Shown in pieces: positions 3,001 to 49,429 of a stretch of 64,000 nt of DNA. Positions within the stretch are counted from its first letter, which is position 1. Each line of letters begins with the position of its first letter. Under the pieces are notes generated by a model. The model searched no databases. It had not been told where the DNA came from and saw nothing but the letters and a program-made list of their open reading frames with translations. Source of the stretch: Romanomermis culicivorax. Its lineage: Eukaryota; Nematoda; Enoplea; Mermithida; Mermithidae. A program made the position numbers and the translations under genes. The stretch lies in assembly GCA_963922205.1 (NCBI GenBank), contig CAWUHX010000159.1, positions 774,470-838,469 of the forward strand. Direction: 5' to 3'.

Positions 3001-6000
3001 CAGGAAACAATCATGGTCCATGTCCAAAAAGATTGCACAGCAGACATCCTTCTAGGCAAAAACTTTCTCAGTCGATTTTCGGAATACACTATCAACAATC
3101 AAAAATCACAGGTCAAATTTGGCAATGTTATACTACCTTGTGATGGCCTAGAATATAGCCCTCTTTCAACTCGTGGTGGAACTTATTTGGACGAAAAATT
3201 AGAATTACCACCCCGTACCGTAACCGAATTTACTGTCCCCTTGCCCAAATCGTACTTACAGGTCAAACAGCTTGAATTCACCCCAAAACCCAAACAGAAT
3301 CCCAAAGTCCATTTCGCAGCTTGCATCTCTGAAAATCAAAACAGTCGCATACGCATATCCGTCCTAAACACACAAGAAACAGCTCAAATTCTTTACCCTG
3401 GAACATGCATTGGCACAGTCTCTTGTTACATCCCAAAACAAAATGCTCCCGCTAATCTAACCCCTTCAACGCAAAACCAGCCCAACCGTTTTGATACATT
3501 CACATGGTTGAAAGAAAATGTTAATTTAACCTCCAGTGACCTCACAGAAGCAGAAAAAACACAACTCCTACGCGCCCTATCGAAGTATCCCACATTATAT
3601 GCTAAATCCAAAATGGATGTAGGTAGAACCACCCTCGTTTCACATACAATTGACACCAATGGCTCCCAACCAGTACGTAGACAACTTTATCGGACTTCCC
3701 CAAAAGAAAAGCAAATCATACAAGCAGAAGTTGAGCAACTCGCAGCAGCAGGTGTCATAAGCCAAAGCAATTCCCCATGGTGTACCAACACAGTTTTAGT
3801 TCCCAAAAAAGATGGAGGCCATCGTTTATGCATTGATTTTAGAGGCCTCAACAAAGTCACCAAAAAAGATACCTACCCCTTACCCCGTATAGACGAAATT
3901 CTAGACACCCTACGTGGAATGAAATATTTTACGTCCCTTGACCAATCCAATGCATATTATTCCATTCCCATAGCACAGGCAGACAGAGAAAAAACGGCAT
4001 TCAATTGCTCAGCCGGCCAGTATCAATTCAATTACCTCCCTTTTGGACTCACTAATGCCCCAGCCACATTCCAAAGGTTGATGGATGTTATTCTTTCGGG
4101 TCTGCAATGGAACACATGCCTTGTATACCTCGACGATGTTTTAGTATTCGCAGACTCCCATGCCCAAATGCTGGAACGTTTAGACACTATTCTTGCCCGA
4201 TTCTCACAAGCAGGCCTCAAGCTAAACATACAAAAATGCAAATTCTGCCAGCCCCAAGTCCAATACTTAGGCCACGTCATTTCTCAGCAAGGCATTTCAC
4301 CAGACCCCCATAAGGTACAGGCAATCTATGACATACCCACACCCAAAAGCTCAAAAGAAGTTAAGTCATTCCTTGGCCTACCCTCATATTATCGCAGATT
4401 CATCCCAAATTGCTCCCAAGTTTCTAGCCCACTCACATCGCTACTCAAAAAGAACTCAGAATTCGCCTGGGGCCCTGAACAGCAAACTGCATTCACTAAG
4501 CTAAAAGAATTACTCATTCATGCCCCAATACTGCAGCATCCCGATTTCACGAAACCGTTTATTCTGCAAACTGACGCCTCAAAACTCGGAATCGGCGCCA
4601 TTCTCAGTCAGCTAGATAGTAAAGGTCAGGATCGCCCCATTGCTTTTGGGAGCCGCACATTGAAACCCGCCGAACGCAACTACCCGATCACTGAGTTGGA
4701 AACCCTTGCAGTAGTCGAATTTGTCAAGTATTTCCGCCCCTATCTTTTCCAGCAACATGTTATTGTACACACTGACCACACAGCAGTTCAGGCAGTCTTA
4801 CAAAAGGAAAACCCGTCCCCTCGCATTGCCCGTTGGGGATTAGCCCTATCTGGTATTCAACTCGACATTCGACCTAAGAAAGGCACTGCTAACCGTAACG
4901 CAGATGCAGTTTCTCGATTCCCCTCACAGACAGCAAAGCAATCCTTTGATATTGAGCAATTAGAAACCCGCCCCGAAATATCAACCATCAATTCAGTTTT
5001 GGAAGCCGAAGCAACTGAACAAGAAGAGCAACAGAAAAACTTTGCCGAACTCCAACGCACTGATCCAACTGTCAAAAGTATTTTAGCAAAAATTGCCCAA
5101 AAACACCCCCTTACTCTGACCAAATTCGCCGTGCATCAAAACATTCTCTTCCGTATAGTCGACAAACAGGCAAAACTATACATTCCCAAGTCCCAAGTCC
5201 AACATCTCATCGCCTCCCATCATGACAGCAAATTCACAGGTCATTTTGCGGCCAGGAAAACTTTACACTTGCTCAGACAGAAATATTTTTGGCCCCAAAT
5301 GAGCCGTGATATCAAACGTTACTGCAAAACTTGCCACCCATGCCAGACACAGAAAACTCTTAGACACAAAGTGCATGCAAACTTGGTACCAATTCAGCCA
5401 ACTGGCCCATTTGATCGAGTTGGTGTTGATTGCATGGGACCATTACCCCTCACTGAAGACGGCAACCGATTCATTGTCGTTCTCATCGATTATTTCACAA
5501 AGTATGTAGAGGCATTCCCGACCCCTGACATCACTGCAGCCACTATTGCCAAGCTATTCGTAACCAAAATTGTTTGTCGTCATGGGTCCCCAAAAATCAT
5601 CCATTGTGATCGTGGCACCGATTTTGTATCCGATCTCTTCTCACGGATCACCAGTTTATGCAATACTCAGAAAATTCACACTACCCCATATCATCCCATT
5701 GCCAATGGGGAAGTTGAGCGTTGCAACCAAACCCTAGCCACCCGTATCCGCATGTACATCAATTCAAATCACACTGATTGGGATACTTATCTCCCGTATG
5801 CCGTTTTTTCGATCAACATTCATAAAAATGATAGCACTTCGTATCCCCCATTTGAATTACTTCACGGTAGGCAAGCTAATCTGCCGTCAGATGCAGCTTT
5901 AAATTTTTTCCCCACGTCCTACATGGTTGATTTAGATGATTACGCCCTTCGTGTAAAATCGCATTTTACAGAAGCACTCTCAACCGTGCAGAAAAGTTTG

Positions 6001-6300
6001 CAAAAAGCCCAAGCCCACTACACCCGTCAGTATAACAAGCATGCTCAGAACATACATTACAAAGCAGGTGATCTTATTCTTTATAAAAATCATTCGTGTA
6101 AACAAGGGTTGACTCCCAAATTCCTCCCTCGCCAGAACGGGCCCTATACAGTTACAAACTTCATGTACCCCAACGTTACACTCAAACACCCCCATAAGAA
6201 TATTACATTTACGGTGCATGTAAACGAGACAACCCCTTTCTACCCTCGGAAAGCAACTATCGAATCTACCCCCACCCTTCCTCAACCTCGAAAGCCTTGA
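1..6300 (+). CDS. Gag(NC)-Env-like-PR-RT-RNaseH-IN polyprotein, N-terminus outside window
   Basis: One open frame of 2,099 visible residues (numbered from nt 1) encodes a retrovirus-like polyprotein. Residues 1-80 hold CX2CX4HX4C zinc knuckles, three complete and one cut by the window edge, typical of nucleocapsid. A Pro-rich linker with a PTAP motif (nt 529-540) follows, then a signal-peptide-like stretch (nt 832-885), a Cys-rich ectodomain and a membrane span (about nt 2464-2535). Pol follows: retropepsin with DTG at nt 2848-2856 and an ILLGKNF motif; RT with YLDD at 4126-4137; RNase H (about 4550-4860); integrase with an HHCC finger (about 5218-5350) and D, D, E at 5428, 5608 and 5710; and a C-terminal GPY/F-like module. 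The first ATG in the window (286) is internal to the protein, so it is not taken as the start. Pol is secure; the Env assignment is weaker. Confidence 0.93.
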   Translation, partial: FQCGQIGHVARNCKSVGTRKSCAICFRNNHSTRDCKSPCIHCSQTGHRSDNCPSKPHSNFQCFICKQTGHTSRYCPNQQSRNIQNCIEYRQPQPLMDIDDPAFYSKLPAITNGPQTTLGTIMPNTHRRSDEYVLDLDVPDWCAMSPPPTPEAEKIEKSPPTIPVGYKIPRKQDTTPPTAPETPSKTGRNLLSLLHGLTPEPYQFRPRQTLLPTPTSKQVQTPSHNSTSKVLQTIQISNRPPPQPKIAKRQHQKAPRQIEQSEKTQYPAASNKTLHWPMFCIFLCIIIPTSCSAQFQMCGTSLSGHSVSIPKLVSCMPPSTVDKPVQTFGKIYIPSTKPHITDAYKCSVRKRKICTNTGFFGSKGIVFDQTEMQNLTPHVCKAIVIDKEHNGQKLYETQPGFWSTNNSLSVEYTWCCTDHCTSVTNVIIEIGQIASWNGKSMTGTLGDLGSCKPTSGHCVTADGSIIWNETAFENLCPFEYKNTHPIKLTQTHMIIEELQGAFSVKNTVFSNPNCPQIQDSILTEQGIIVQLDKSTPHRNAFLTPKTNETHTTLYDFDDFEPINAKLNYLADKIQEFEIQNFKNVWSELCRQAQRHLDLVWQILRLDATLGARAFLQRTDIIAEFTGEALTVWPCKQVNASKIFYNHKINQTCYKLLPILVGTEIMFSNPGGNDLTPFSQTVDCHHMHVALYKQNNTWVSETGSPHVTNLPLEIVWNQNFSLFHFNTPAIFHDQLATISTNLLFLKQYIYKTHTLENTVKKLVNYTAQMSLNSDTVYNMISGTGQALGNTLSGAGQGIEHVITGTTQSLTDGLNNLLKGPLQIIINLAVITVVIAGVFYSFLALRKYFPSSKHHATNEHAYEIPSNNRHLHETIPPSFGHALLELANRRGAQTQQKYVLVDIDTPRTPAIELINQIQQSASNKPPQNVPEKHTPHIPITLNGKLMTKGMIDTGAVYSLIDSRVAQLLQLDMKPPLVQAKAANNLPIHFVGTTFVTVTAQTIQETIMVHVQKDCTADILLGKNFLSRFSEYTINNQKSQVKFGNVILPCDGLEYSPLSTRGGTYLDEKLELPPRTVTEFTVPLPKSYLQVKQLEFTPKPKQNPKVHFAACISENQNSRIRISVLNTQETAQILYPGTCIGTVSCYIPKQNAPANLTPSTQNQPNRFDTFTWLKENVNLTSSDLTEAEKTQLLRALSKYPTLYAKSKMDVGRTTLVSHTIDTNGSQPVRRQLYRTSPKEKQIIQAEVEQLAAAGVISQSNSPWCTNTVLVPKKDGGHRLCIDFRGLNKVTKKDTYPLPRIDEILDTLRGMKYFTSLDQSNAYYSIPIAQADREKTAFNCSAGQYQFNYLPFGLTNAPATFQRLMDVILSGLQWNTCLVYLDDVLVFADSHAQMLERLDTILARFSQAGLKLNIQKCKFCQPQVQYLGHVISQQGISPDPHKVQAIYDIPTPKSSKEVKSFLGLPSYYRRFIPNCSQVSSPLTSLLKKNSEFAWGPEQQTAFTKLKELLIHAPILQHPDFTKPFILQTDASKLGIGAILSQLDSKGQDRPIAFGSRTLKPAERNYPITELETLAVVEFVKYFRPYLFQQHVIVHTDHTAVQAVLQKENPSPRIARWGLALSGIQLDIRPKKGTANRNADAVSRFPSQTAKQSFDIEQLETRPEISTINSVLEAEATEQEEQQKNFAELQRTDPTVKSILAKIAQKHPLTLTKFAVHQNILFRIVDKQAKLYIPKSQVQHLIASHHDSKFTGHFAARKTLHLLRQKYFWPQMSRDIKRYCKTCHPCQTQKTLRHKVHANLVPIQPTGPFDRVGVDCMGPLPLTEDGNRFIVVLIDYFTKYVEAFPTPDITAATIAKLFVTKIVCRHGSPKIIHCDRGTDFVSDLFSRITSLCNTQKIHTTPYHPIANGEVERCNQTLATRIRMYINSNHTDWDTYLPYAVFSINIHKNDSTSYPPFELLHGRQANLPSDAALNFFPTSYMVDLDDYALRVKSHFTEALSTVQKSLQKAQAHYTRQYNKHAQNIHYKAGDLILYKNHSCKQGLTPKFLPRQNGPYTVTNFMYPNVTLKHPHKNITFTVHVNETTPFYPRKATIESTPTLPQPRKP
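689..696 (+). promoter_or_regulatory. Candidate 3' splice site before Env of element A
   Basis: GTTTACAG-type acceptor (TTTTACAG) in the Pro-rich linker. The next ATG downstream on the strand is 832, which begins the Env signal-peptide-like segment in frame. Confidence 0.35.
832..2541 (+). other. Env-like glycoprotein domain inside the element A polyprotein
   Basis: The segment starts at an in-frame Met followed by a hydrophobic run (FCIFLCIII) and a small-residue end (SCSAQ), which looks like a signal peptide. About 520 residues with many Cys and several N-X-S/T sites follow. A hydrophobic span beginning IIINLAVITVVIAG then leads into a basic LRKYF stop-transfer. The second half carries a C...W...LGARAFLQR...FTGEALTVWPC pattern, shared almost unchanged with element B. 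I associate this Cys/Trp/TG-A-L/C arrangement with class III (gB-like, chuviral) fusion proteins; that is an inference from memory, not a search result. No separate stop codon ends it; the frame continues into protease. Confidence 0.65.
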
Positions 6301-13438: not shown

Positions 13439-13703
13439 ATTTTTGTAGAAAAAATATTTACAATGTCCTCTACTTCCAAGAATGAAGACATAAAACGTTC
13501 AATAGTAGAATGGTTTAATAGAACCTTAAAAACTAAATTGTTTAAATATTTTATAGAGTTTACTACTTATAAATGGATCGATATTTTGTCAACAGTAGTT
13601 TTGAACTATAATCATTCTATTCATGGATCAATTGGTGAAAAACCAGTTAATGTGAATTCTTCGAATGAAAACCTTATAAGGCAGAGACTTTACCCCAAGA
13701 ACG
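13439..13703 (+). pseudogene. Polinton integrase, 5' piece, cut by insertion of element B
   Basis: The frame shows the end of a retroviral-type integrase core: IVEWFNRTLKTKLFKYF, with the Glu matching the catalytic E of DDE, then YKWIDIL and YNHSIHGSIGEKPVNVN. The frame runs into element B's LTR at 13704 and resumes after 29957. The N-terminal finger and first two Asp residues are not found nearby, so the gene was already incomplete before the insertion, or its 5' exon is lost. Confidence 0.85.
13700..13703 (+). repeat. Target-site duplication of element B, left copy (AACG)
   Basis: AACG precedes the 5' LTR and recurs directly after the 3' LTR. Four base pairs is usual for Ty3/Gypsy. Removing the element and one copy brings the two integrase pieces together. 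Confidence 0.92.
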
Positions 13704-13914
13704 TGTCACGTGCCGCTCAATTCTCCAACGTCACGTGATTCCGATCATGCCGACATTTTGTTAATTTTCATGTTTTGTTTATTACTCAATCATGCTTTTG
13801 TTTATTTCATTTTTACACATGCATTTTACGTTCGTTTTTTATATTTTTCATGCATTTCTATGTTTCGTTTTGTTGTATTTTTATTTCTTTACAAACGCGG
13901 GCTACAGTAGGCCC

Positions 13915-14232
13915 TTTAGCTAAAAACTTCCGCCAGTCGTGCTCCACGAGCACATGGCTATTTTTGGTGCGCTCACGCACCTCTTATCATCAAAAATTAG
14001 CGTCGTTTTTGTTACGCAAAACGACTAGCTAAGAAGTTTTAGCTAAAGACGTTCATATGCTTAGCATAGGCACTGCAGCCGGCCTCAGTGCTAAACGCAT
14101 GTGAATGAAAAAATGTCTATGTGCTCATAGGCATCTTCTGCATCGCGTCTAGCTGCAGAAGTTAGCTTGAGCGCCGAGAAACTCCGCCCAAGCTGCAGCT
14201 GTAGCCAAACATGTCCTTAAAAGGACATGTTT
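13915..14232 (+). other. Hairpin cluster in LTR B (copy in 3' LTR at 28700-29017)
   Basis: An outer stem TTTAGCTAAAAACTTC (13915-13930) pairs with GAAGTTTTAGCTAAA (14033-14047). Inside are GTGCTC/GAGCAC (13939-13953), GCTATTTTTG/CAAAAATTAGC (13957-14001) containing GGTGCG/CGCACC (13966-13981), and GTCGTTTT/AAAACGAC (14002-14025). Further hairpins follow, including CACTG/CAGTG near 14071, CTTCTGCA/TGCAGAAG near 14130 and AAACATGTCCTT/AAGGACATGTTT (14207-14232). Most arms pair perfectly. Function is unknown. Confidence 0.8.
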
Positions 14233-14287
14233 CTTTAGTTTTTCGCTCATTCTTGGGTTCACCAAGCTTTCGTCCAGTTGTCACTCC

Positions 14288-14399
14288 GCGTCCGCCGCCT
14301 TCTCGTCAAATTTGCATAATTTTATTATATACCTGTGCGTCCGCCGCGTTACTATCAATAAATTTGCATAAATTTACCCGTGTTCACTGCGTCCGCCGC
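14288..14399 (+). promoter_or_regulatory. Candidate LTR B promoter region
   Basis: CGTCCGCCGC occurs at 14289, 14338 and 14390 (about 50-bp spacing). The octamer ATTTGCAT, a POU-type motif, occurs at 14310 and 14362. TATATA lies at 14326-14331 and AATAAA near 14357. The arrangement suggests promoter and possibly polyadenylation signals. The transcript start is not determined. Confidence 0.4.
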
Positions 14400-14638
14400 T
14401 TAACGTCCACAGTACCCCCGCTGCCCATCAGTGCCAGGTGTCCGACCGCCCCGGTTCGTGAATTAAACGTTGGAGTTTCGCCTCCCGCTCGCTCCCGCTC
14501 CCTCCCGCTCACCGCCGCTCGCCGCCGCTCGCCGCCTAGGACGTTTGAGGATCGCATCCCCCGCTCCCAGTGCCAGAAGACCGAAAGCATCCAGGGACTT
14601 GCCGCCCGTTGCGTCGTAATCGCTTGAGAAACAGGACT

Positions 14639-14646
14639 AGGTGAGT
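14639..14646 (+). promoter_or_regulatory. Candidate 5' splice site in LTR B
   Basis: AG|GTGAGT matches the splice donor consensus. It lies after the putative promoter, so a primary transcript would carry it. Splicing to a site before 18854 would remove the long leader; splicing to 20594 would give a subgenomic RNA. No transcript data support this yet. Confidence 0.45.
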
Positions 14647-15168
14647 CTTCTCAGGGGATTGTTGTTATTTGTGGGTTATTTGTTGGGAAATCCTTCCTGA
14701 GTCGGTTTCCCAAGGTCTCCACAGATAAGTAGGGCCTCCACCACTCAGGTTCGGGCAGAAAGGGGCTGTCTGGTTCATAATCGGGCCCCATAATTTAGGT
14801 CATTTTACGGGTGACCCTGTCCCCACTCTCACTGAGTAGGACTCGGGGATTGTCGCACCTAGCCTGGCAGCGTTGTCCATTACCCTACAGCAAGACCCCA
14901 AGGACAACCCAAGAGAACCAGCTATAGACCTCTCTATAGCCACTAATCGCCAGGTTAGGCCCCCAACGCCATTTAGGGAATCCTGGGGAAAATGCCAGTA
15001 TCCATCAGGAGTCACAGCCTATTACTCACTGTAATAGGATCAATCTGATATGGTTCACCATCAATGTGACGTCTAAAACACGGTATCACCTGATGAGATA
15101 CCCAAACCTCCCCAGCTCTCCCAAATCCACATGTCATACACGTGACATGGATGGCGCAATATGTGACA

Positions 15169-15186
15169 TGGCGAGGCTGGAAAATC
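15169..15186 (+). other. Primer binding site candidate of element B
   Basis: TGGCGAGGCTGG directly follows the LTR end. TGG is complementary to a tRNA 3' CCA. I could not assign the tRNA: the complement beyond about 12 nt does not fit a canonical T-arm at the right distance. Confidence 0.6.
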
Positions 15187-15271
15187 GACCTTAAGTCTGG
15201 CACTCGCCCTTGAGTGTAAAACTTTACCCTTGGGTCGGATCTACCCCCAGGTCGGGTCAACTCCCATTTTT

Positions 15272-15530
15272 AAGTCGGACAAGCCCCCTTAAAATTGGGC
15301 ACTAGCCATCCAATAAGTCGGAGACCCCCCAAATTCGGGTTTACTGCCTAATGGGTCGGGAATGCCCCTTATTTCGGATTAACGCTCCTGTAGGTCGGAT
15401 ACCCCCACCTCACGTCGCGTGTTATTACTGTAAGTCGGAAATTTTTCCCGTGCCACCGAGAGTTATTACTGTAGGTAGGGAATTTATCCCTGAACATCAA
15501 ATTTAATTACTGTAAGACGGGATTTGCCCT
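15272..15530 (+). repeat. Degenerate ~41-bp tandem array in leader B
   Basis: Units share CTGTAAGTCGGA followed by a CCCC block. The GTCGG core lies at 15274, 15317, 15355, 15393 and 15434, with variants at 15475 and 15516. Confidence 0.75.
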
Positions 15531-16177
15531 TACGAGTGATCTAAATGTGATCTATATGTGTAAATAACTATCTCATGCGTGTGTATTACCCCCTATGAGC
15601 AATAAATCCCCTCTGAGTCGAGTTATTTATCCCCAGAGTCGTGTTATTTGTCCCAGAGTTGAGTTATATATCGAGTATTCTGTATTTCTCCTCTGATTCA
15701 TTCTGTACATTCTGCATACTTAATCTGTGTTGTAAACTGCCTTATCTGTTTTCTTTTCCCTTATTCCCCCCCCTCTTCCCCTAATCCTGGGTGGTATACT
15801 GTAGCCCTCCGGGTGGGTGCCATTACAGTACGCCTGTGCCCATTCCCGTACTGTAACTACAGTATACCCATACGCGGGTACTGGTATCACAGCTGTAGGG
15901 GTTTACGGCCTCTCCTGACTGTTGGTGGTCCTTGACCCCATGATACAGTACACCCTCCCCGTATGATTCTGGACGTCATACGTGGCTGCGATTTGTTACT
16001 TGTGTACAGTCTTTTTTGTATGTCGGCGGAAACTGTCGGAACTGCTCACTTTTCCGGCCCCAAACACACTTTTACACCGACTGTTTACACCTTTAACACG
16101 CGTATGCCCAAATCCCGTATTCCCCGTCTTCGGTTCTTTTCCTTTCCCTTTTCCTTTCTCGGTCAGCTGAGCGGTGT

Positions 16178-16178
<1 letters not shown>

Positions 16179-16237
<59 letters not shown>
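16179..16237 (+). repeat. Run of 59 A in leader B
   Basis: An uninterrupted poly-A run is flanked by GCGGTGTC and TTGTTTTTTTCGG. It sits inside an otherwise unique region of the element. The exact length may be affected by sequencing. Confidence 0.9.
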
Positions 16238-16240
<3 letters not shown>

Positions 16241-16378
16241 TTTTTTTCGGATGCCACCGCTACAGTATGACACCCTTACATAAGTTTCTCTTTTCCACAT
16301 TTCTACTTACTGTAAGGTCTGTTTCTTCTACTTTCCGGTTGTTGCATCTAGACCATAGACTTTACGGGTCATGTTCTT

Positions 16379-17417
16379 TGACGTCAGCAACAACAACGTT
16401 ACGGGTTGTTGTTGTTGTGTGGTTCAGCCTCACGGATGCAACCACTAACGTCTGCAACAGCCGCTTCACTTGCTGTTGCTGTAAGGGGTGGGTAGCCCTC
16501 CGGGTTCTACCCCTGACGTCAGCAACCGACACTACGTGTTGTTGTTCAAGTTAACACTCCAGCAGTAATGACTTCTGACGTCTGCAACAGGTGAAGCCAA
16601 CGTTGTTGTGACAGGTTCGGCTGGTTCTCTGCACCCCATCTGTGACGTCAGCAATGGTGACGCACCGTGTCACTATTCGAAGATGTGCAGGTCTTACGGG
16701 TGCCACATCTGACGTCTGCAACAACTGCATCTCATGTCATTGACCAAAGGTATCAGACCCTCGGTTCCACCTTTTTGACGTCAGCAACGGCACCATCACG
16801 TGTTGCCGTATACCGATAGCTGGCTTCAGGGCCCTATTGCTGACGTCAGCAATGACAATGTATCATGCTCTCGCAGCAGGAATTGAGGTTACATGATCCT
16901 ATTTCTGACGTCTGCAACGGTAACATTACGTGCTACTGCAGGGGTTTGCTGGCCTTAGGCACTCACCCCTGGCGTCTGCAACTGCGACGTGATACTTGAA
17001 TACTCTTATCCCAGGCACCTGCAGTCAGCACCAAGGTTGTGTGTTGGTCCATACCCCCTACCTTCTGACGTCCGCACCAGGTTACTGTCGGCCCTATGAG
17101 TATTCCACTTGAGTTGTAGGTGGTCGCTGGCGCATGGTCCCATCACCTACCTCTCTTGTTCAAGGGTTTGTGTGTGTCTGGGGGCTGATGCCTGGGAAAC
17201 ATCAGTCCACATACATACACCACCTGAGATGCTCACTAGCCTACGTACTGATCAGGTTGTCCGCCCGGGTAGCGGCACTGTTGATCAGTATGTGGCTGTT
17301 TTCAAGCTTTAACTGCAGGTTTGAACGAGTTACACTCGGCCTCAGCTGGGTTGGTTGCTTGACTCGTGCAGACGATAGGCATTTGCAGTCGGTACTGCCT
17401 GTGTCTGACGTCTGCAA
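16379..17417 (+). repeat. Array of TGACGTC(A/T)GCAA motifs in leader B
   Basis: Twelve occurrences start at 16379, 16446, 16514, 16576, 16643, 16710, 16776, 16841, 16906, 16970, 17066 and 17406. The first ten are spaced 62-68 bp. The core is a CRE-type bZIP site; 16838-16851 is an exact TGCTGACGTCAGCA palindrome (CRE-type Maf element). Several units also carry inverted arms, such as ACGGCA...TGCCGT after 16785. Confidence 0.85.
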
Positions 17418-18853
17418 GGGTTCGGCAATCTTCTTGTAAATTTCTTATCTAAATTCACTCATTTTCTTTCATCTCATCGAGCTGTCATACATAGATCTTC
17501 TTTAGTGTCCCCGCCGTAGTGGTTCCCAAGGGACCGCGGCACAGCCTCCGGTTGGGCCTAGAGTGTATAGGACCCCCTGTCATATTTCTCTCACTCGAAC
17601 GCCTTTGTTAACTGGCTTAACGATGCCCGCGCTAGAGTCGCCACTGACCCAGAGTCCGCCTCCGCGGTCTACCCTTTATTAGTCATGTAAATAATAGGCA
17701 CCGTTGAGTCCGCCTCAGCGAAGGTATTGAGTACGCCTCGATACATACTTTACACTCATATTCAATCAGGGACACCTTGTACCCGTGATCCCTTAGATGT
17801 TTTCGGGTGCGCCCTCAAAACATCCAGAGATTTCATTTTAACTGACTGAGTGTGTCAGAATAGCACCCTTGGTACCCGTGCTCCTTCCCTCTTCTACTGT
17901 GTGACCTGCGAACCTCACTTCATCTCAGTGATCGGCAAACCCGGCCACCAGCTGTGTATAATACTCCTGGAGAGTGTCCGTTCTGTTCGGAATGCGGGCT
18001 CCCGTTTCGAACACGGCTGTAAGTTATTTGCGAATGTCGTCCAGCACGGAACCTCCTGTATAGTCCATCTCACTATGCAGAGATCGCAATCGCTCCTGGC
18101 GAGTGAGGCCCGTTGCGTAACTGCGCGACCCCTTTGCGTAACTGGGTTTGTAAATTAGTTTTGTCCCTATTTATTGCTCCCTTTTAAGTTCACTTTCAGT
18201 TGACCCCATCCTTTCTACCTTATGCCACTTTATGCGCTACTCCTGGTGAGTAGGATCTTGCCGGCTACGAGTCCGCCTCGCCCCAAGGTTTGTAAACTAG
18301 TACAGCGGTCGAACTTCCAGGAAAAATCCCTCCTGAGCGGGTTTATCCGTCACCTTATTTCTCGGCAGGAAAGCCGCCTCTTCTCTTCTTTCTACATGAT
18401 CTTCTGTCCTCTTCACCTATTCTAATTGCCGGGTCCAGGCCCCAAAACTCTACATTCTGGTCGGGATCGATTCCCCATATCTCAGGCCAACCTCTGTCCA
18501 TCACGGGCGACCAGATAAATTCCCTTCTGCGTCACCCTGATGTACTCTGATCTTACATCTTATAATCCTATTCCATTCTAGCTCCCTTTCCGTGGTCGCT
18601 AGTCTTAAGCTAAGTCAATTTACGTCTTAAACGCCGTCGCACACGCGTTTTCCCGAATTCACGCGCTCTTTCGCCGCGAATTCAAAAGTAGTACTCACTT
18701 TCATTTTACACAATAGAGACACCCCGTCGTTCCTGCCGTCTCAGTACCCAGCCTGTACAGACCAGTGAGCCGCTCTCTATTCAATTTGACTTAATTGCTT
18801 CACGGGCAAGGACGTCTGTTCTAACCACCTTACGGGAAAACGAACCCTCGGAC

Positions 18854-21800
18854 ATGAAGTCGGAAACTGATCTCCCTTCACAGATCGAGAACAAGGTTCA
18901 GGCAGCATTTGAGAATGCCCTTGGACCCCTCAACCAAAAGTTAGAGGCCATGAATGGTCGGAGGCACCCTCCCGTGTCCAGCTTTATGGCCCCTCCCACC
19001 TTCTCCGGTGCTTTTGGTGAGTCTATCACCGATTTTATGTCGCATCTTACTCGTTTCTTTACACTCCAGGGTGTAAGCGAAACGGATCATGCGTATAAAA
19101 TCGCCTTTCTGGAGTCATGCCTCACGGGTCCTGCTCTCGCCTCCTACCGGGACTTTAGCAGCAGCACTCCAATACCTACCCGCTACGAAGAGTTTACGGC
19201 TTTTCTACGGAGAGATTTTCCGGTAGGGCGCGACTCTGATCTGCATCAGCAGCTGATCCAAGATCGACTGCAGAAGCCGACAGAGTCCGCGATAGTCTAC
19301 CTTGAGCACCTCAAGAGACTATCCAGGGTAGCGTATCCAGATCTCGCGACGGATGTCCGAGATTCTATCATCAAACCTATCTTTCTGCGGGGACTGAAGC
19401 CGGTCCTCCGAGATAGTATCAAGTTTAGGGAGTTCACGACTCTTGAAGAGACACTCAAGGCAGCCTGTTACGCAGAATCCCAAATCTTTCGGGACGAGAT
19501 CCGGTACACTGCTCCATCTAACGCCGTTTTCTCTTCAGAACCTAAACACGCCGGATATAATCCCGATATGCCTAACAGAAGCGCAAACGGTCGTCAGAGC
19601 AACGCTCCAACGTCGTCATCCTCCGCCGATGAGGTTCGCCGCTTGAAACAGGAAATGGCCAGGCTCACGGCCCACGTAGTGAAGCTCACGGCCAAGCAAC
19701 GTGCACCCGCGCCAATCCAACAGACGCCGCCTCCACAGCCGTCGACACCAAATCAGTCCGCCGGGCGACGCTCGTCGGGAGCACACCTTCAAACGTGCTC
19801 CTTCCACGGACTGTGTACACATAGCGACGCCGACTGCCGGGCCCAGCGTCCCACCGGTGCCGCTCCCGGTAACAACGCCGCTAACGGTGGTCGCTGTTAT
19901 TTTTGCCGTACACGTGCCCACCCCACGGACCGATGTGACAGGCCATGCCCTCATTGTCGTCAAGTGCGAGTGCACCGATCAACTGCCTGTCCGCAGCGCA
20001 ATCCGGCAAACACGGGTGAGAATGTCTACCAAGATACTGGTTATTCTTCCCAGGGGACAAATGTGTATCATCAAAGAAATGGTTACCACCCTCCCAACGG
20101 GACAGGAAACCACTATCGGCAGCCCATACGCCGCAACAACGCCGTTGGGGCTACCGATAGCCCTCCTCATCCAGATCCTCTTGACCTGGATGATGAGGCA
20201 CTTGCTGAACACCTGACAGATTCTTCACAACAGTGTTATCCTGTCTGCGTAATCAGTATTGAATTTTCAGTGGTCCAAGCAGCCCAGGTACCCGTACCGA
20301 TGAACGTATCGGACATACCGCTGCCACCACCACCACCAAAGTATGCGATGCCGGTCACTCTGGACCCCTCGACGACACCGCAGTTTGTTGGCCACGCTAA
20401 CATCCTCGCATCGTATCGCATTCCTAAACTCAAGACTGCCGAGCCAGCTCCAGCCGCAAATACGACGTCTTCGGCGCCACCGGCCCGCACCGTCCCTCCA
20501 GGACCACCGCCTTCGATCCCCACGGATTCGGCTACGGAAGTCCTCGACCAGGTCGAGCCCATGAATTTGTCAGGTATACTACCTTCTTCTTCAGGTGATC
20601 CTAGAGTAGGAACCAGGAATCTCTCTCAGTCCACGACTCTATTGATTTCTCGTTCACAGCGCCATCGCCCGTCCAAGACGCGATGTTGGCCATCTGGTCA
20701 GTCGACCTGGCCAAGAAATACCCGCATTTGCCGTGGACTCTCCTCAACGAGCCATCAAATGTCGAAGCGCTCACGGCCGCCGACGTCGTGCTTGCAGCAC
20801 CCGTCTCGATGCGCCTATTACGACCCGACGTCGCCCGCCGGGCACTCGAGTTCATTGCCAATGGGACTATCACCATCTCGCCCGTCGAGAAGTTCTTATT
20901 GGACGGGGAGCCATCCTCGCCTTCAGTCGACGCCGTCCGCCGAGCAGTCGAACAGGCCAGTCGGATCCTCCTGCCTGCTGCCGCCGCTACATCACCGGCA
21001 GCAGCACCACCTGTTGCCGCGACATCGCCAACTAAGATGGACATTACTGCTTCCTCGCCCCCGGCCAAGGAACCCGCAAATGATCCTACACCGCCGGCAA
21101 CAGCCCAGGCCAAATCGCCGGCACCAGCCCAAACGACATCTCCGACCGCCGCGACCAAGTCGCCCGTCGTCGAACCCATGGCCGTCGACGAGACCTTACG
21201 TCCAGTTAATGAGGATGTCAGCATTGTCGAAACATCACCGTTCCCAACGGCAGTCAACCCACGGTCGCCGAAAGTCGGTACCCTTCGGGAAATCCTCCCC
21301 AGCGGTGAATTGGTCCTCGATTTCCCCGACCAGGAACCAATCTCGTCCGACAGCGACGAAGAAGAAATCTGACACTGCCCCTCAGGCCAGATTTGTGAAA
21401 TTGAGTGAACACTTACAAATTACGTTTGTACAGTCGTTTTTGACAATAAAATTGACCTTGGTAGCATCACTGTTCCTAGGGGTGAGTTTGTCAGCACCGG
21501 CGGCTCAGTATCAATTTTGCGGTCTCTCAAGAAGCGGACATCCACTTGAGTTACCCCAGCGTGTAGAGTGTAAACCACCGCAATCTTCATGGAGCCCGCG
21601 GCGCATGAATGTTACGGTGTATGTCCCTAGCTCAGACCCGATTACAACCACAGCGTGGAACTGCACATTGCGCTCCCGCAAAGTCTGCACCAACACTGGT
21701 TTCTTCGGCTCTAGGGGCATCACTGCAGACGTCATCACCACTCAGCACTTAGCGCCTGCGGCATGCACGCTAGCACATCGCACTAAAATGTTTGGTTCAC

Positions 21801-24800
21801 AAAAACTTGTCGGCATTCGCCCTGGCTTTTATAGCACAAACCAAACATTGGAAGTGATGTACGAATGGTGCTGCAGCGACGTCTGCAAGACAGTGACTAA
21901 CCTCTTCATCGAGGAGGGACAAGTCGCTTCGTGGGACGGCACTACGGCCCTAAGCACCTTAGGCGATGTAGGTGGATGCAGTCCCACTGCAGGCCAGTGC
22001 ACTACCCTAGACGGGGTCATTGTCTGGCCTGCACAAAACTTCACGGCGCGGTGTCATTATCACCCCAAGGGAAATTACACTGCGTCCATGTCAGGGAACC
22101 ACGTCATCATCGATGATCTGCAGGTTGCCCTCAAGATCCCGGGAAACTCCCGTGTCTTCCAACTGTGCCCAGAACTACGTTCCACCACAGTCCGGACGGA
22201 TCAGGGTCTTCTCCTTCGCATCCACGGGAGATACAATTTGACCCAAAACATGTTCAGAGTGGCAACGGACAGCCGTCCCGATCCTGTCAATGCCAAACTG
22301 AACTATCTGGCTCAGCAGATCAAGGAGTCGGAAATTAACGGTTTCCGGTTCACGTGGCTTGAGCTTTGCTCTCACGCTCAACGCTATCTTGATCTGACTT
22401 GGCAGTTGCTTCGCTTCGACCCTACCCTGGGTGCCCGGGCATTCCTCCAAAGGAATGACCTGACGGCGGAATTCACAGGCGATGCACTGACTATATGGCC
22501 GTGTCAGAAGGTCAACGCCACCTACGTCTACCACTCGTACCGGGTGGGGAACGTTTGCTACAAGTACTTACCTGTACAGGTTGGCGGCACCATCTACTTC
22601 GCCACCCCCGGTGGCCCGGATCTCATTAAATCTAGCCCAATTGTGCCGTGTCATCACCACTTTACGGGGATTTTCCGAAATCGCTCGGGCTGGTTTACTG
22701 AGTCTGGCGCGGTCCATGTGAGCCACATCCCACTGGAACTCTTCTGGAAGCAGCGCTTCAACATCACTCACTTTGAGGCACCGGCGCTCTTCCATGACCA
22801 GTTGGCGATGACCCCTTCAAACTTTGCCTTTTTTAAACAGTACGTTTACAAGACTGAGCAAATTGAAGCGGTACTCAACCGGCTGGTGAACTTTACCGCT
22901 GGTCTATCCCTGCAACCAGACGCCATCTACCAGGCCTTTGCAGGGGTAGGAACCGACATCAAGGCCTCTCTGGAAGGTGTCGGTTTGGCAGCAAACCATG
23001 TTATTACGGGTCAAGAGCACACCCTCGCCCAGGGCTTGCATGCTGTCCTGAGCGGGCCGGTCCAGTTGATCTTTAACATCCTAATCACCCTGACAGTGCT
23101 GATCGGTGCAGGATACCTTGCCTATCTTGGTGTATCTTATTATCTCAGTTACCGTCTGCGGAGCAAACAGGTCAGGTTTGTTAGCCGTTTCTCCCCGTTG
23201 GGTCTTTACCGCAAAGTCCAACGCTGGATCGGTTTTCACTACGTGCAAAACGATGTACCCTCCCAGCTTGACCGAATCACACCGTGTTTTGTCGTGCTGC
23301 TGGACACCAAGGAAACTCCTGCTTTCCTTGATACGGGTTGCCCACGCACTATCATTAGCCAACGCCTTCATAAAGCCTTGGCTAAAGAAAGTCCGAAGGC
23401 GGTCATGGCGTTCCAGCAACATCACGACTTTAACCCATTGATGAGCATCAATGGTAAAGCCGTTCATACCATCCTTTCGGGACCATATGAAATCATGTTG
23501 CCCGGAAACCGCCAGCCGAACACACGGATCGATGTACATCTCCATGTGTGCAAGACTACGTCTCCCTTCTGGGCACCTGTTGACCTCATACTCGGACTGG
23601 ACTTCTTAGAACAGTTCAAGAACATTATGTTTGACTACCAACGTAATGTTTGTCGGCTGGACGCGGTAGAATTACCCCTCCTGCTGACCACGCCGGAGAT
23701 TGACCAGATCGACCCCTGGTGGGAGAACACCCGTGCTCTCTCACGAAACTCACACAGGTCGGGATCACGATCGCGGTCCAGGGCTTCGTCCATCTCTCGG
23801 CCACACTCACGGGCCTCCTCAGTTGCCTCATCACGTGGGTCAACTAGGGGATCCCGGGCCTCTTCTAGACGGGCAAGTCGTCATCTGTCGACCTTGCACG
23901 GGTCAGGTTGCCCTCGACCTCCGCCTGGAACCTCTCCAGTTACGCTAGAGAAGGGCCGATACCGTGAGCCCAGTGATTCAGATGCTCCGACATCACCCGT
24001 GCCAAACGCGCCTCCGCTATCGGACACCGAGGTTGAATCACTAGGAGCTACTCAGAGTCCGAAGGATCACTCAGACCACATACTAACGGTACAGGATGAG
24101 TCCACCCTTCTGAATGACCCGGAACCCTCCGTCGGATACGCTCTAGTAGGCCTCCTACGTCGTACGGGACTGCCGATTCCAAAGCGGTCCGGTAAGACCA
24201 AACATGTTAGTGGTGCCACCACACCTGATTCCGGTCATGTGGTCACGGCTTTTTACCCAAATGATATTCGGACACCCCATATCAAAGTTCTCCTCAACAA
24301 CTGGGTAGAAGCCAAGGCACTGGTCGACACAGGAGCTGTTTTCTCACTCTTGGACCACAAGTTAGCGGCCCAGCTGCCCAACTTGTCACTATCACCAACC
24401 AGGGCACGCCCTATCGCAGCCAACGGGTCCCCGATCCCACTGCTAGGAGCAGCCTACATCACAGTTACAGTGGCTGATGTCTCTGAACGGATTCAGGTCC
24501 AAATACAGGAGAACTGTTCAGCTGAACTGGTCCTCGGAACCAATTTCCTCGGCCGGTTCAATTGTGTCAGTTTGAACTGGGAGAAATCTTTCCTCCAGTT
24601 CAAAGAGAGTAGAATCCCCTGTGACGGTCTCATCCACAGCCCACCTTCTGCCCGCGGCGCTTTGCCCCTGAAGGACTTGGTGATTCTAGAGCCTCGCTCC
24701 ATGACACGATTCACTGTACCTGTCCCACCAATCTATACGAACGTGCCTGAGGTGGCCCTCTTTCCGAAGAACCTCACCGGGTCTCAACGACATGTATATT

Positions 24801-27800
24801 TTGCAGGAAGCGTCAGTACCGTGACCAACGGTCACATACCGCTTCAGGTGGTTAACCCGAGTACTCACTCCGTGGTTCTCTACCCGCACACGACCATCGG
24901 TCATGTGCAAATGCATAGTGAGCCCTCACGGGAATCACCGGTCGACTCAGACACCGTCCTCGACCGTCAGTGGGTCGAGGCCAATGCTGTGATCTCACCG
25001 GACATCTCCCCCCGGGACCGGGCAGCCTTACTCGATCTACTGGTTGCATACACCGACCTTTATGCTCTTGATGAAAAGGACACAGGTTCCACTGATCTCG
25101 TCCAGCACGAAATCAGCACGGGTGATGCCCGCCCAGTCCGCCGTTTTCCTTACCGGTCCTCACCTAAGGAAAAGGATCTCATCATGCAAGAGGTCAAGGC
25201 GCTCCAGGAGAAAGGTATTATTCGGCCCAGCACGTCTCCGTGGGCTACTAATACTGTCCTGGTGCGCAAGAAAAACGGTTCTCACCGTATGTGTGTTGAC
25301 TTTCGTGGTCTTAACGAGGTCACGAAAAAGGATGTCTACCCTCTCCCACGGATAGATGACATCCTCGACACACTCAAGGGTATGAAGTATTTCACTACCC
25401 TTGACCAGGCTAACGCTTATTGGTCAATCCCGATTGCCGAGGCCGATAAGGAAAAGACGGCTTTTAATACGCCTATTGGACTATTCGAATTCAATTATTT
25501 ACCTTTCGGTTTATGCAACGCGCCAGGGACATTTCAACGCCTTATGGACCTCCTCCTTACTGGAATCCAATGGCGCACGGTTCTGACTTATCTCGACGAC
25601 ATTTTGGTGTTCGGGAACTCTCACACCCAAATGCTTGAGCGCCTGGCAGATGTGTTCGCCCGTCTTCGCCGGGGTGGAATGAAGCTCAGACTGAGCAAGT
25701 GCAAATTTTCGCACTCGGAGGTAGAGTACCTAGGCTATCGCATCTCACAGAGCGGCCTAGAACCTGACCAAGCCAAGCTGGCCGCCGTCCAAAACCTACC
25801 CATTCCACAAAACGCCAAAGACATCAAGTCCTTCCTAGGCCTCGTGTCTTACTACAGGCGTTTCATCCCTGGTTGTGCCCGGCTCAGCGAGCCACTCACC
25901 AAGCTCTTACGGAAGGAAACTACTTTCCAGTGGTCAAAACCTCAGCAGGAGGCGTTCGATGAACTCCGCCGCCTGCTGACCAACCCTCCTATCCTGCGCC
26001 ATCCGGACTTTTCGAAATCCTTTATCCTTCAAACTGATGCGAGTATTTCGGGGATAGGAGCGGTTCTTAGCCAGTTAGACGAAAATGGATACGACCATCC
26101 TGTCGCGTACGCCAGCCGAGGGTTAACAGCGGCCGAGAAAAACTACTCCATTACAGAACTGGAGACTCTCGCTGTTGTCCATTTCGTCAAGCACTTTCGA
26201 CCATACCTCTTCCAGCACGAGGTGGTCGTTCAGACTGACCATACCGCGGTCAAAGCAGTGTTGGAGAAGCCTAACCCCTCTGCTCGGATCGCTCGGTGGG
26301 GACTCGCGCTCGCCGAATTCAAACTGACAATTCGGCCGCGAAAAGGTCAGTCTAATGGTAATGCTGACGCATTATCACGCCTGCCGGATCCTAACTCCCT
26401 CACCGGTCAGAGTATTGATGATACTCCCCTTTACAGACCTGAGGGGCACGTTATGATGATCACCGATGGTGCGCAGCACCTGGCGAGATCAAGGACCTTG
26501 ACCGATGGTGTGCAGCACCTGGCGCGTTCAAGTAATTCAGCACCGATCGCTGTTGGCGCGGAGCGCCTGGTACGATCAGAGTCTTATGCCGAGATATCCG
26601 TCGGTGCGCAGCACCCCGACCTTTTCGCTGCTCAGCTGGAGGATCCGGAATTAGCCGACATCATTCGCTCTCTTAAGCCTCTGGGCGACCAGAATGATGT
26701 GCGAGGCTACCATCTGTTGGATAACGTCCTTCAGAAATGGACAGGCGAGTCCAATAAGATCGTCATACCCAGGTCCATGGTTACTACCATTATCCGGGCT
26801 CATCACGATGACATCTTAGCCGGACATTTCGGTGCTAAACGTACTGCGCGGCTCATTGCTCGCAGATACCACTGGCCCTCCCTCAGTCGGGATGTCAAGT
26901 CCTTCTGTCAGCGGTGTGATCTTTGCCAACGGAATAAGCCCGCTCGACAGAAAACCACTGCGACCCTGAAACCTATCACCATCACGGGACCGTTTCACCG
27001 GGTAGGTGTCGACTGCATGGGACCAATGACCACTAGCGAAGCTGGCAACCGTTTCATCGTAGTCTTTATCGACTACTTTACGAAATGGGTCGAGGCTTTC
27101 GCTACTCCGGACATCACTGCGAACACCATAGCCCGGCTGTTTGTAACGCAAATTGTCTGCCGGCACGGGGCACCGCAGATCCTTCAGTCAGATCGTGGCA
27201 CTGATTTCACATCAAAACTGATGACTGAAATCACTGCGATCTGCGCAACGAAGAAAATCCACTCTACCGCCTATCACCCGATGACCAACGGCGAAGTGGA
27301 AAGAGCTAATCAGACGCTAGCCACACGGCTACGTATGTATGTTCATCAAGGACATACTGATTGGGATGAACACCTACCATACGCTGTGTTTGCCGTCAAT
27401 ATCAGCATGAATGAGTCAACAGGGTACTCGCCCTTTGAACTCATGTACGGTCGCACACCCATGCTCCCTGTTGACGCCGCGCTCTCATTCAACCCTCCGG
27501 CCCATATCATTAATGTTTCCTCATATGATATGGAGGTCAAACGTCATTTCACGAATGCGTTAACCTTAATCCAGAGTCGGATTGAGAAAGCACAGGAAGC
27601 CTATGCACGGTCGTACGACCGGAGGGCACATGATGTCTCCTACAAAGTAGGGGATCAGGTGCTTAAACTGCGCACCTCCAGCAAACGTGGACTCACTCCT
27701 AAATTGCTGCCCATCTACGATGGACCCTACCTTGTAACAAGTGTGGCATATCCCAATGTCACACTTCGTCTCGAGATGGATCAGGAAGACACTGTACATG

Positions 27801-27970
27801 TCAACCAGCTTCGACTTTACGTGTCCCCTGAACAAACGAGTGAAGCAGAGGATACACCTCCCACTTCACAGGCAACGGATTCGGCACCCTTATTGTATCC
27901 ATCAATAAGCCGGGACTTTACACCGAATCTAATTGACCCACATCTTGATGCAGAGGTCCCCGACCCGTAA
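18854..27970 (+). CDS. Gag-Env-like-PR-PR-RT-RNaseH-IN polyprotein, 3,038 aa
   Basis: The frame starts at ATG 18854 after a leader without competing long ORFs. Residues about 50-215 are a Ty3/Gypsy capsid domain (PPTFSG...FLRRDFP...LKRLSR). Zinc-finger motifs follow at 19780-19995 ([14 protein letters not shown] and a CX2CX5HX4C variant). A Pro-rich linker with PPKY (20333-20344) leads to a low-complexity Arg/Ser/Pro stretch overlapped by another ORF, then the Env-like domain (about 21430-23160). Two retropepsin-like domains follow, with DTG at 23330 and 24326, separated by an SR-rich stretch (23730-23890). RT has YLDD at 25589-25600, then RNase H (about 26020-26290), a peptide repeat (26450-26630), and integrase with an HHCC finger and D, D, E at 27011, 27191 and 27293. 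The whole is open and the LTRs nearly identical, so the element is probably competent. Confidence 0.94.
20583..20594 (+). promoter_or_regulatory. Candidate 3' splice site before the overlapping ORF
   Basis: CTTCTTCTTCAG is a good pyrimidine-tract acceptor. The first ATG downstream of it is 20683, the start of the 229-aa ORF. Use would need a donor such as 14641. Confidence 0.35.
20683..21372 (+). CDS. Overlapping 229-aa ORF between Gag and Env of element B
   Basis: This ORF lies in a different frame from the polyprotein (-1 relative to Gag). It starts at ATG 20683, though the frame is open from 20605, and ends just before the Env signal peptide. Its sequence looks protein-like: an N-terminal part ([29 protein letters not shown]), an Ala/Pro/Thr-rich middle and an acidic end (SDSDEEE). 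The main frame here reads as Arg/Ser/Pro/His-rich low complexity, as expected of a shifted reading. It may be an accessory gene read from a spliced RNA, a product of frameshifting, or a segment displaced by two compensating indels. I recognise no family. Confidence 0.5.
21430..23160 (+). other. Env-like glycoprotein domain inside the element B polyprotein
   Basis: A hydrophobic signal-like run ([19 protein letters not shown]) precedes a Cys-rich ectodomain that aligns throughout with element A's: [44 protein letters not shown], and C..YLP. Several N-X-S/T sites are present. A span around [20 protein letters not shown] and a basic tail follow. The preserved Cys pattern in two diverged families argues for selection on a folded exoplasmic domain. 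The class III fusion protein reading is an inference. Confidence 0.68.
23290..23665 (+). other. Extra retropepsin-like domain of element B
   Basis: The domain has [12 protein letters not shown] (DTG at 23330-23338) and, about 85 residues later, [13 protein letters not shown], the two hallmark segments of a retroviral aspartic protease. Cys replaces the usual Ala or Ser after DTG. The canonical protease of Pol follows at about 24290-24560 ([22 protein letters not shown]). Element A has only the second. The extra one may be catalytic, or act as partner or inhibitor in a heterodimer. Confidence 0.75.
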
Positions 27971-28488
27971 CTCAGGATGCACTCTCTTCATTGTCCCCGC
28001 TTACGGACGAGGACGTCCTTTTTCGAAGGACCGCCGTGCCCCTCACGAAGTATCCACTCTTGTCCATGCTGGATCTTAGTGGATAGAAGAGAGCGTTCAG
28101 CAACCTAAGCGTCACGCCTTAGGCGCATCCTCACGCGATAGCCTACACCTCTCAGGGTGCATCCCCTGCGATAGCCCGACAATCTGTACCTCACTGGGCG
28201 CATCCTCTGCGATAGCCTACATCTTGCCCTGAAAATTTTTCTTTTCTGTGTTCTAGACCTTCGCACAGGATATTCAATGTCGGCAACTCCACGCATCAAC
28301 GACCCCCGGTCACCATACCACCGGACAAATTACGATCAAAGAAGGCCTCATCCACCGACAACCCAACGGACCTATTCGACCACTCTCGCCGTCACACCTT
28401 GGAATGCCCTACGACCACGGACACGCCGCATAAAACCTCACTACTGACCACTGCAAGGACGAGGACGCCCTTTTTCGAAGGACCGCCG
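27971..28488 (+). other. 3' untranslated region of element B with internal repeats
   Basis: A 34-bp segment starting GGACGAGGACG occurs at 28005-28038 and again at 28457-28490, with one mismatch. The second copy overlaps the LTR start. ACGAGGACG lies 30 nt before the LTR, as in element A. Between the copies are three GCGCATCCTC-GCGATAGCC units (about 28122-28220). No purine tract adjoins the LTR, only GAAGGACCGCCG. Confidence 0.75.
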
Positions 28489-29953
28489 TGTCACGTGCCG
28501 CTCAATTCTCCAACGTCACGTGATTCCGATCATGCCGACATTTTGTTAATTTTCATGTTTTGTTTATTACTCGATCATGCTTTTGTTTATTTCATTTTTA
28601 CACATGCATTTTACGTTCGTTTTTTATATTTTTCATGCATTTCTATGTTTCGTTTTGTTGTATTTTTATTTCTTTACAAACGCGGGCTACAGTAGGCCCT
28701 TTAGCTAAAAACTTCCGCCAGTCGTGCTCCACGAGCACATGGCTATTTTTGGTGCGCTCACGCACCTCTTATCATCAAAAATTAGCGTCGTTTTTGTTAC
28801 GCAAAACGACTAGCTAAGAAGTTTTAGCTAAAGACGTTCATATGCTTAGCATAGGCACTGCAGCCGGCCTCAGTGCTAAACGCATGTGAATGAAAAAATG
28901 TCTATGTGCTCATAGGCATCTTCTGCATCGCGTCTAGCTGCAGAAGTTAGCTTGAGCGCCGAGAAACTCCGCCCAAGCTGCAGCTGTAGCCAAACATGTC
29001 CTTAAAAGGACATGTTTCTTTAGTTTTTCGCTCATTCTTGGGTTCACCAAGCTTTCGTCCAGTTGTCACTCCGCGTCCGCCGCCTTCTCGTCAAATTTGC
29101 ATAATTTTATTATATACCTGTGCGTCCGCCGCGTTACTATCAATAAATTTGCATAAATTTACCCGTGTTCACTGCGTCCGCCGCTTAACGTCCACAGTAC
29201 CCCCGCTGCCCATCAGTGCCAGGTGTCCGACCGCCCCGGTTCGTGAATTAAACGTTGGAGTTTCGCCTCCCGCTCGCTCCCGCTCCCTCCCGCTCACCGC
29301 CGCTCGCCGCCGCTCGCCGCCTAGGACGTTTGAGGATCGCATCCCCCGCTCCCAGTGCCAGAAGACCGAAAGCATCCAGGGACTTGCCGCCCGTTGCGTC
29401 GTAATCGCTTGAGAAACAGGACTAGGTGAGTCTTCTCAGGGGATTGTTGTTATTTGTGGGTTATTTGTTGGGAAATCCTTCCTGAGTCGGTTTCCCAAGG
29501 TCTCCACAGATAAGTAGGGCCTCCACCACTCAGGTTCGGGCAGAAAGGGGCTGTCTGGTTCATAATCGGGCCCCATAATTTAGGTCATTTTACGGGTGAC
29601 CCTGTCCCCACTCTCACTGAGTAGGACTCGGGGATTGTCGCACCTAGCCTGGCAGCGTTGTCCATTACCCTACAGCAAGACCCCAAGGACAACCCAAGAG
29701 AACCAGCTATAGACCTCTCTATAGCCACTAATCGCCAGGTTAGGCCCCCAACGCCATTTAGGGAATCCTGGGGAAAATGCCAGTATCCATCAGGAGTCAC
29801 AGCCTATTACTCACTGTAATAGGATCAATCTGATATGGTTCACCATCAATGTGACGTCTAAAACACGGTATCACCTGATGAGATACCCAAACCTCCCCAG
29901 CTCTCCCAAATCCACATGTCATACACGTGACATGGATGGCGCAATATGTGACA
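28489..29953 (+). repeat. 3' LTR of element B (1465 bp)
   Basis: Same length as the 5' LTR, with one noticed substitution, and followed by the AACG target duplication. The nucleotides directly before it are not purine-rich (see the 3' untranslated entry). Confidence 0.97.
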
Positions 29954-29957
29954 AACG
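29954..29957 (+). repeat. Target-site duplication of element B, right copy (AACG)
   Basis: Right partner of 13700-13703. Confidence 0.92.
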
Positions 29958-49313: not shown

Positions 49314-49429
49314 AATTCCCAACAATTTTTCAATACAGTATATTCTAAAAATGATCCAAAGGGATTAACAAGGGTGAAAATTTATCGATTTTCCGGCAGG
49401 CAGTGTTGTCAAGCCCAAAAAAAAGAAGA

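Follow-up and report, generated by a model that had tools for sequence, protein, structure and literature searches.

The window analysed here, by which we mean the whole stretch of 64,000 nucleotides from the mermithid nematode Romanomermis culicivorax (assembly GCA_963922205.1, contig CAWUHX010000159.1, positions 774,470 to 838,469 of the forward strand), contains a complete Ty3/gypsy-type retroelement with long terminal repeats (LTRs), element A, in which Gag, an envelope glycoprotein (Env) and Pol are encoded as one uninterrupted frame, with the Env placed between the nucleocapsid (NC) and the protease (PR). A related element, B, is cut by the left edge of the window. The features of element A are as follows:

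13700..13703, with a second copy at 29954-29957, + strand: target site duplication (TSD) AACG, 4 bp, from sequence comparison
13704-29953, + strand: element A, Ty3/gypsy-type, 16.25 kb overall
13704..15168, + strand: 5' LTR, 1465 bp, with TG...CA ends
15169..15180, + strand: putative primer binding site, starting with TGG and abutting the 5' LTR
15169..18853, + strand: 3.7-kb leader with 37 ATGs and a run of 59 A at 16179-16237
18854..27970, + strand: one ATG-to-stop frame of 3038 aa, uninterrupted, reading Gag, linker, Env, PR1, PR2, reverse transcriptase (RT), RNase H (RH), integrase (IN)
19022..19468, + strand: Gag capsid domain (PF19259), by Pfam
19796..19990, + strand: nucleocapsid zinc-knuckle-like motifs, by sequence motifs
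21434..21502, + strand: signal-peptide-like segment before Env, by hydropathy and position
21503..23122, + strand: Env, predicted class III fusion glycoprotein ectodomain plus anchor, by PF24664 and gB fold
23066-23122, + strand: membrane anchor of Env, by hydropathy
23252..23753, + strand: PR1, first retropepsin-like domain, with DTG in 23324-23347 and ILGLDFL in 23585-23617
24287..24556, + strand: PR2, retroviral-type aspartic protease, by Pfam, with DTG in 24317-24340
25262..26320, + strand: reverse transcriptase and RNase H, by Pfam
26765..27280, + strand: integrase (H2C2 and core), by Pfam
28489..29953, + strand: 3' LTR, 1465 bp

Domains were assigned by Pfam searches with six pieces of the frame, which recovered Ty3_capsid (1.1e-7), Monjiviricetes_fusion (2.4e-14) and gag-asp protease (2.3e-8), followed in Pol by RVT_1 (1.8e-35), RNase H (2.5e-37), Integrase_H2C2 (2.3e-22) and rve (1.4e-8). 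The TG...CA ends of the LTRs, the short TSD, the Ty3-type capsid and the PR-RT-RH-IN order are those of Ty3/gypsy elements (Metaviridae); as far as profiles alone speak, Ty3_capsid was matched and a Pao-specific family was absent from the Pfam matches listed at E<=0.1. For retroviruses and their relatives Gag-Pol-Env, with the Env on its own mRNA, is regarded as the standard order, and in the classical errantiviruses the Env lies 3' of Pol and is made from a spliced mRNA. Element A differs from these classical members, the only ones with which its gene order was compared, in that the Env is internal, between NC and PR, and not a separate open reading frame (ORF) 3' of Pol; the ORF listing contains none of at least 120 aa at 27971-28486, downstream of the frame. 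An earlier note on this DNA, made from the sequence alone, had proposed a signal-like run, an ectodomain and a membrane span between nucleocapsid and protease in one frame, and the hydropathy, motifs and order of Pfam domains bear this out. Its description of a complete Gypsy-type element likewise stands, while its account of the extent and content has to be enlarged: the whole element measures 16.25 kb, two protease-like domains follow the Env, and about 690 nt of the linker are also read in another frame (see below). The first of the protease-like domains has a weak Pfam match (0.018, under the cut-off) and is 20% identical to the second in an alignment (E 9e-4). Both of these tandem domains (23252-24556) are constrained in A, while B has one per Pfam. 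The element has about 53% G+C against about 33% in its surroundings. By codon preference no clear coding signal was found in the leader (15169-18853), which is perhaps spliced or otherwise bypassed.

The Env segment matches the PF24664 profile of the Monjiviricetes, chuvirus-like glycoprotein family (52.7 and 52.9 bits; cut-off 27). A structural model based on an alignment of 9 rows (mean pLDDT 64.7) was compared with the PDB, and herpesvirus gB accounted for 50/50 among the matches listed (best E 5e-18). The modelled fold is thus of the gB/VSV-G type, suggesting that the Env of A is a class III fusion glycoprotein. Sixteen cysteines are invariant across 7 full Env rows. Profile and fold together support the identity that the earlier note had assigned, and the structural comparison that it had proposed, on the reasoning that a non-envelope fold would speak against it, points to an envelope. 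A first model (6 rows, pLDDT 46.7) had been discarded as too poor. The top viral structure match (BFVD A0A894KNI7) is a 955-aa glycoprotein of 'Keturi virus', which is possibly a retroelement misread as a virus. Searches of the A Env against viral contigs, and of the Env alignment against viral and prokaryote genome contigs, gave no confirmed relative.

Copies of both elements were sought in the host genome (359 Mb, 595 contigs) and ranked by similarity of the Env, so that older copies are under-sampled. There are at least 104 copies of the Env piece of A (104 scored of 3428 candidates) with 99-100% protein identity, none of them with a stop inside that piece; in 68/104 the stop-to-stop frame is at least 3038 codons, the two commonest open-frame lengths being 3092 and 3100 codons. 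For B there are likewise at least 104 copies (104 scored of 3722 candidates; 98-100% identity), 67 of the 104 with a frame of at least 2450. The two LTRs of A in the window (13704-15168 and 28489-29953) have a single mismatch, at 13788, as the earlier note had counted. Ten further LTR pairs were fetched, of which nine were measurable, and they differ at 1, 2, 1, 30, 47, 1, 7, 2 and 18 sites over 1432-1466 columns. A matching 4-bp TSD flanks 5/9 of these, being missing in the three most diverged pairs and in one single-difference pair. The LTRs of two copies with close pairs (7 and 2 differences) are about 6% away from those of the window, which implies that more than one subfamily moved recently. 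The earlier note is upheld on the youth, intact frame and recent mobility of the element. A 24-nt in-frame length polymorphism occurs at 21094 in the linker of A.

The same order of domains recurs in element B, which in the host genome has an open frame of 2486 aa:

1..6300, + strand: element B, left-cut by the window edge, with knuckles, linker, signal-like run, Env, anchor, PR, RT, RH and IN in one frame
826-879, + strand: signal-like run of B, a hydrophobic run
2464-2520, + strand: membrane anchor of B, a hydrophobic span

B retains three full CCHC knuckles and one cut by the window edge, and is 42% identical to A in the Env and 57% in the RT. Its composition is strongly G-poor, with a GC skew of about -0.28 at 1-6000 of the window. 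Protein searches further yielded P0006, P0007, P0008, P0009, P0017, P0025 and P0047; in the search that gave P0017, P0025 and P0047, PF24664 was found in 4/120 among the matches listed, of 5133 matches. No match in the searches that returned P0006-P0009 was named as a chuvirus glycoprotein. By piecewise comparison three metagenome proteins, P0008 (2490 aa), P0025 (2604 aa) and P0047 (2499 aa), are full Gag-Env-PR-RT-RH-IN frames, so that this order is seen in B and in these three, and the diverged single-frame examples come to five. Such a frame might come from a chance fusion or an assembly artefact in a lone copy, or be a host gene that arose by domestication; nothing was found in favour of these, and given these five examples, the at least 104 copies each of A and B, and the LTR pairs with TSDs in independent copies, we regard any of these as exceedingly improbable.

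The elements were placed on a tree built from RT-RNase H sequences. Its 62 rows comprise A, B and five further Env carriers, along with 55 other pieces chosen from 114 by similarity (the remaining 59 were dropped), and none is from a named Ty3/gypsy reference family; the midpoint root serves the drawing alone. All 7 Env carriers fall into one group (support 99/91), which also takes in P0016 and P0018, and the Env tree and the RT tree concur on two close pairs. P0018 begins just upstream of a membrane span. If P0016 and P0018 are scored as being without Env, two changes of the Env label are needed on the RT tree. The simplest account would be that the Env was gained once, long ago, and its ectodomain subsequently lost.

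To assess selection we used the nonsynonymous/synonymous ratio, observed over expected (N/S); by region, the 20 lowest-ranked of the 104 copies of A were compared with the window copy, using variants with a minor count of at least 2. On the Gag side the capsid (18854-19453) gives 0.11, the next stretch 0.27 and the nucleocapsid 0.44; the first parts of the linker (20131-20682) give 0.56 and 0.54, the Env ectodomain 0.11, and the anchor with the tail 0.15. PR1 (23354-23753) gives 0.09 on 12 variants, the spacer 0.31, and PR2 and beyond (24251-24853) 0.03. Several of these values are based on 9-17 variants, the signal region having only 2; with singletons included the values rise to 0.18-0.60 outside the overlap described below, and the signal region gives 0.73 on 9 variants. 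Hence, Gag, Env and both tandem protease-like domains of A are under purifying selection.

Part of the linker between Gag and Env in A carries a second coding signal, the codon preference favouring the -1 frame from roughly 20650 to 21370:

20683..21372, + strand: P0003, overlapping gene in the -1 frame, 229 aa, 690 nt, by codon preference and N/S
20577..20594, + strand: best splice-acceptor-like site of A, with the cut before 20595; its score is within the range of chance maxima

Over all 104 copies the P0003 frame (frame 2) has an N/S of 0.31 (58 synonymous and 40 nonsynonymous shared variants). The constraint is strongest at the start: 20683-20850 has 0.03, with 13 synonymous shared variants and a single nonsynonymous one, whereas the stretch upstream of the ATG (20601-20682) has 0.80 (11 variants). 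Further on it is uneven, the three following parts giving 0.16, 0.73 and 0.45. All 102 copies covered at the ATG retain it, and all 103 covered at the stop retain that. Constraint that begins at the ATG, with both ATG and stop kept, makes it very probable that P0003 encodes a protein from a start of its own, and the overlap means that A is expressed in a more complex way than as a single polyprotein. An origin of P0003 by -1 frameshifting is less likely, as the constraint starts at its own AUG and no classical slippery site is apparent by eye. Its start is the most constrained region, the middle is rich in P, A and T, and the end is acidic. P0003 had no match in Pfam or PHROGs, only weak matches in the PDB (best E 0.006 over 23 residues), and no relative in B or among 123 fetched proteins (one match, E 0.63); no overlapping gene was found in the B linker.

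These features bring up the possibility that the unbroken frame chiefly serves packing, with Gag made from the full-length RNA by termination or a shift, Env-Pol made from a spliced mRNA by ribosomes that scan beyond the P0003 AUG to that at 20759 in the polyprotein frame, and Gag-Env-Pol a minor product or none. Such an arrangement would fit the constraint on P0003 from its own AUG, the AG of the acceptor-like site near 20595 being present in 89/92 covered copies, the AUG 20759 being kept in 102/102, and the 37 ATGs of the leader, which suggest that it is spliced. Opposed to it are the score of that acceptor, some constraint on the polyprotein frame at 20131-20682 in the 20 copies, and the linker of B, which is constrained and in which no overlapping gene is seen. 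In 10 low-ranked copies of B this linker has an N/S of 0.50 and 0 stops in the polyprotein frame against 3.9 expected, while the other two frames have 1 against 2.8 and 5 against 2.8; one of the 10 copies has a 2-base insertion. We take the constrained linker of B as the best support here for a translated Gag-Env junction, and rate the packing explanation as unlikely, if still deserving of consideration.

Alternatively, the Env or most of its ectodomain might be spliced out as an intron with coding content, leaving Gag-Pol or Gag-signal-anchor-Pol. Candidate splice sites were ranked by weighted scores, and the top 8 were inspected. In this part of A the best donor-like site (21482) shares its phase with the second acceptor-like site (22841), and splicing between them would take out 453 ectodomain codons in frame; in B the weak donors 1091 and 647 are in phase with acceptors 2504 and 2966. 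Removal would solve the topological problem, and P0016 could represent a version without the ectodomain. Against this, none of these splice-like sites in A and B scores above what chance maxima reach (the B donors fall far short of them), and there is protein-level constraint on the Env and likewise on the B linker. We consider this improbable, distinctly more so than the packing of frames.

Taken together, we think it likely that A is a young, mobile Ty3/gypsy-type element of a clade in which an old insertion of a class III Env between Gag and protease has been kept in frame, and that it makes a membrane-threaded polyprotein. Several observations weigh against this conclusion. The equal phase of the sites 21482 and 22841 is one, and the quality of the Env model is another, being moderate, with residues 409-535 mostly below 50 pLDDT. 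Among the relatives, P0016 is without the ectodomain but retains two hydrophobic segments before the protease, and P0007, on its protein record alone, is Gag-Env in one predicted frame ending after the Env. In A the amino acids of the polyprotein frame are unconstrained at 20683-21369 (N/S 2.5-3.0) and weakly constrained at 20454-20682 (0.60-0.83 over the 104 copies). Stops of this frame are only weakly depleted across the overlap, with 5 against 11.5 expected in the 104 copies (P 0.028), and among shared variants (in at least 2 copies) with 2 against 4.1 (P 0.22). Allowing for the P0003 frame the figures are 5 against 11.2 (P 0.034), at a minor count of 3 they are 0 against 2.9 (P 0.053), and the third frame on the same basis has 11 against 14.7 (P 0.20). 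When synonymous codons were shuffled so as to preserve P0003, the polyprotein frame was open in 305/20000 cases; with the polyprotein frame preserved, P0003 was open in 143/20000. A frame-breaking net indel lies within 20683-21369 in 2/102 copies, and three deletions (1 or 5 bases, each in one copy) lie just upstream of 20683. The weak depletion of stops in A, joined with a constrained linker in B that lacks an overlap, suggests that the fused Gag-Env-Pol frame is probably translated.

The anatomy, fold, grouping, copy number and selection on the frame are established here, and for translation and membrane insertion we infer the following course. Ribosomes would read through Gag, linker, Env and Pol as one chain; the internal signal would direct the Env part into the lumen of the endoplasmic reticulum, where signal peptidase would release its N end, and the Env anchor would halt transfer. 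The cytosolic protease or proteases of the element could then sever Env from Pol, with Gag and Pol remaining in the cytosol next to a membrane bearing their own Env. In A an accessory protein would come from P0003, probably translated from a spliced mRNA starting at its own AUG, and leaky scanning on the same mRNA, past AUG 20683 of P0003 to AUG 20759, could give a Gag-less Env-Pol. More tentatively, and with somewhat less than even confidence, we propose that the clade builds enveloped particles from membrane-threaded Gag-Env-Pol with one spike per Gag-Pol, in convergence with the capsid-signal-envelope polyproteins of positive-strand RNA viruses, and with an accessory gene and a second protease added in A. 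If so, each Gag-Pol molecule would deliver its own envelope spike.

Some of the metazoan env-carrying gypsy elements have type III fusion glycoproteins (PMC13172572), and these and the errantiviruses resemble A in combining a Ty3/gypsy element with an envelope. Anakin, a BEL/Pao element of mosquitoes, resembles it in being an LTR element with a chuvirus-type envelope glycoprotein (PMC7642597); it differs in belonging to BEL/Pao, and the passages of PMC7642597 consulted do not describe its glycoprotein as lying in a single frame with Gag before it and Pol after it. Gypsy elements with env, and BEL/Pao with a chuvirus-type Env, are already known. Jingchuvirales glycoproteins, of the same family as the A Env, occur in arthropod genomes with Gypsy fragments nearby, although the authors found no clear capture by Gypsy or Copia (PMC10084718). 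In Caenorhabditis elegans Gag and Pol of the Gypsy/Ty3 element Cer1 are not separated by a stop, and its accessory protein CERV comes from spliced RNA with one exon in another reading frame (PMC10309623); Cer1 is like A in both the fused Gag-Pol and the accessory protein in another frame, and unlike it in having no internal Env. The polyprotein of hepatitis C virus, an unrelated virus, offers only an analogy: one frame encodes the capsid, then an internal signal and the envelope, and signal peptidase makes the cut (PMC5402940).

A class III Env within the Gag-Pol frame, in two families of at least 104 copies each and under selection, constitutes an alternative workable plan. No single-frame Gag-Env-Pol LTR element was found in the literature searched, to which the survey of env-carrying elements across animals reportedly made by Chary & Hayashi in 2025 does not belong; provisionally, therefore, an Env inside the Gag-Pol frame is a new gene order. 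It bears on the gain and loss of infectivity by such elements, as P0016 appears to have lost the ectodomain and kept the two hydrophobic segments, and it offers a natural system where incorporation of the envelope need not rely on separate recruitment by Gag.

Elsewhere in the window, scans with Rfam (gathering threshold) and for tRNAs gave nothing. A 229-codon stretch at 12550-13239, without a Pfam match, bears a tentative resemblance to a viral-type packaging ATPase, and a short ORF at 42730-43113, with only 0.06 in Pfam, may resemble a family of virus-like proteins from animal genomes. A transposase-like fragment at 33814-34485 matches DUF4371 under the cut-off (E 0.014). Self-comparison shows a satellite array, repeating every 354 bp or so, from 49427 to 64000, the end of the window.
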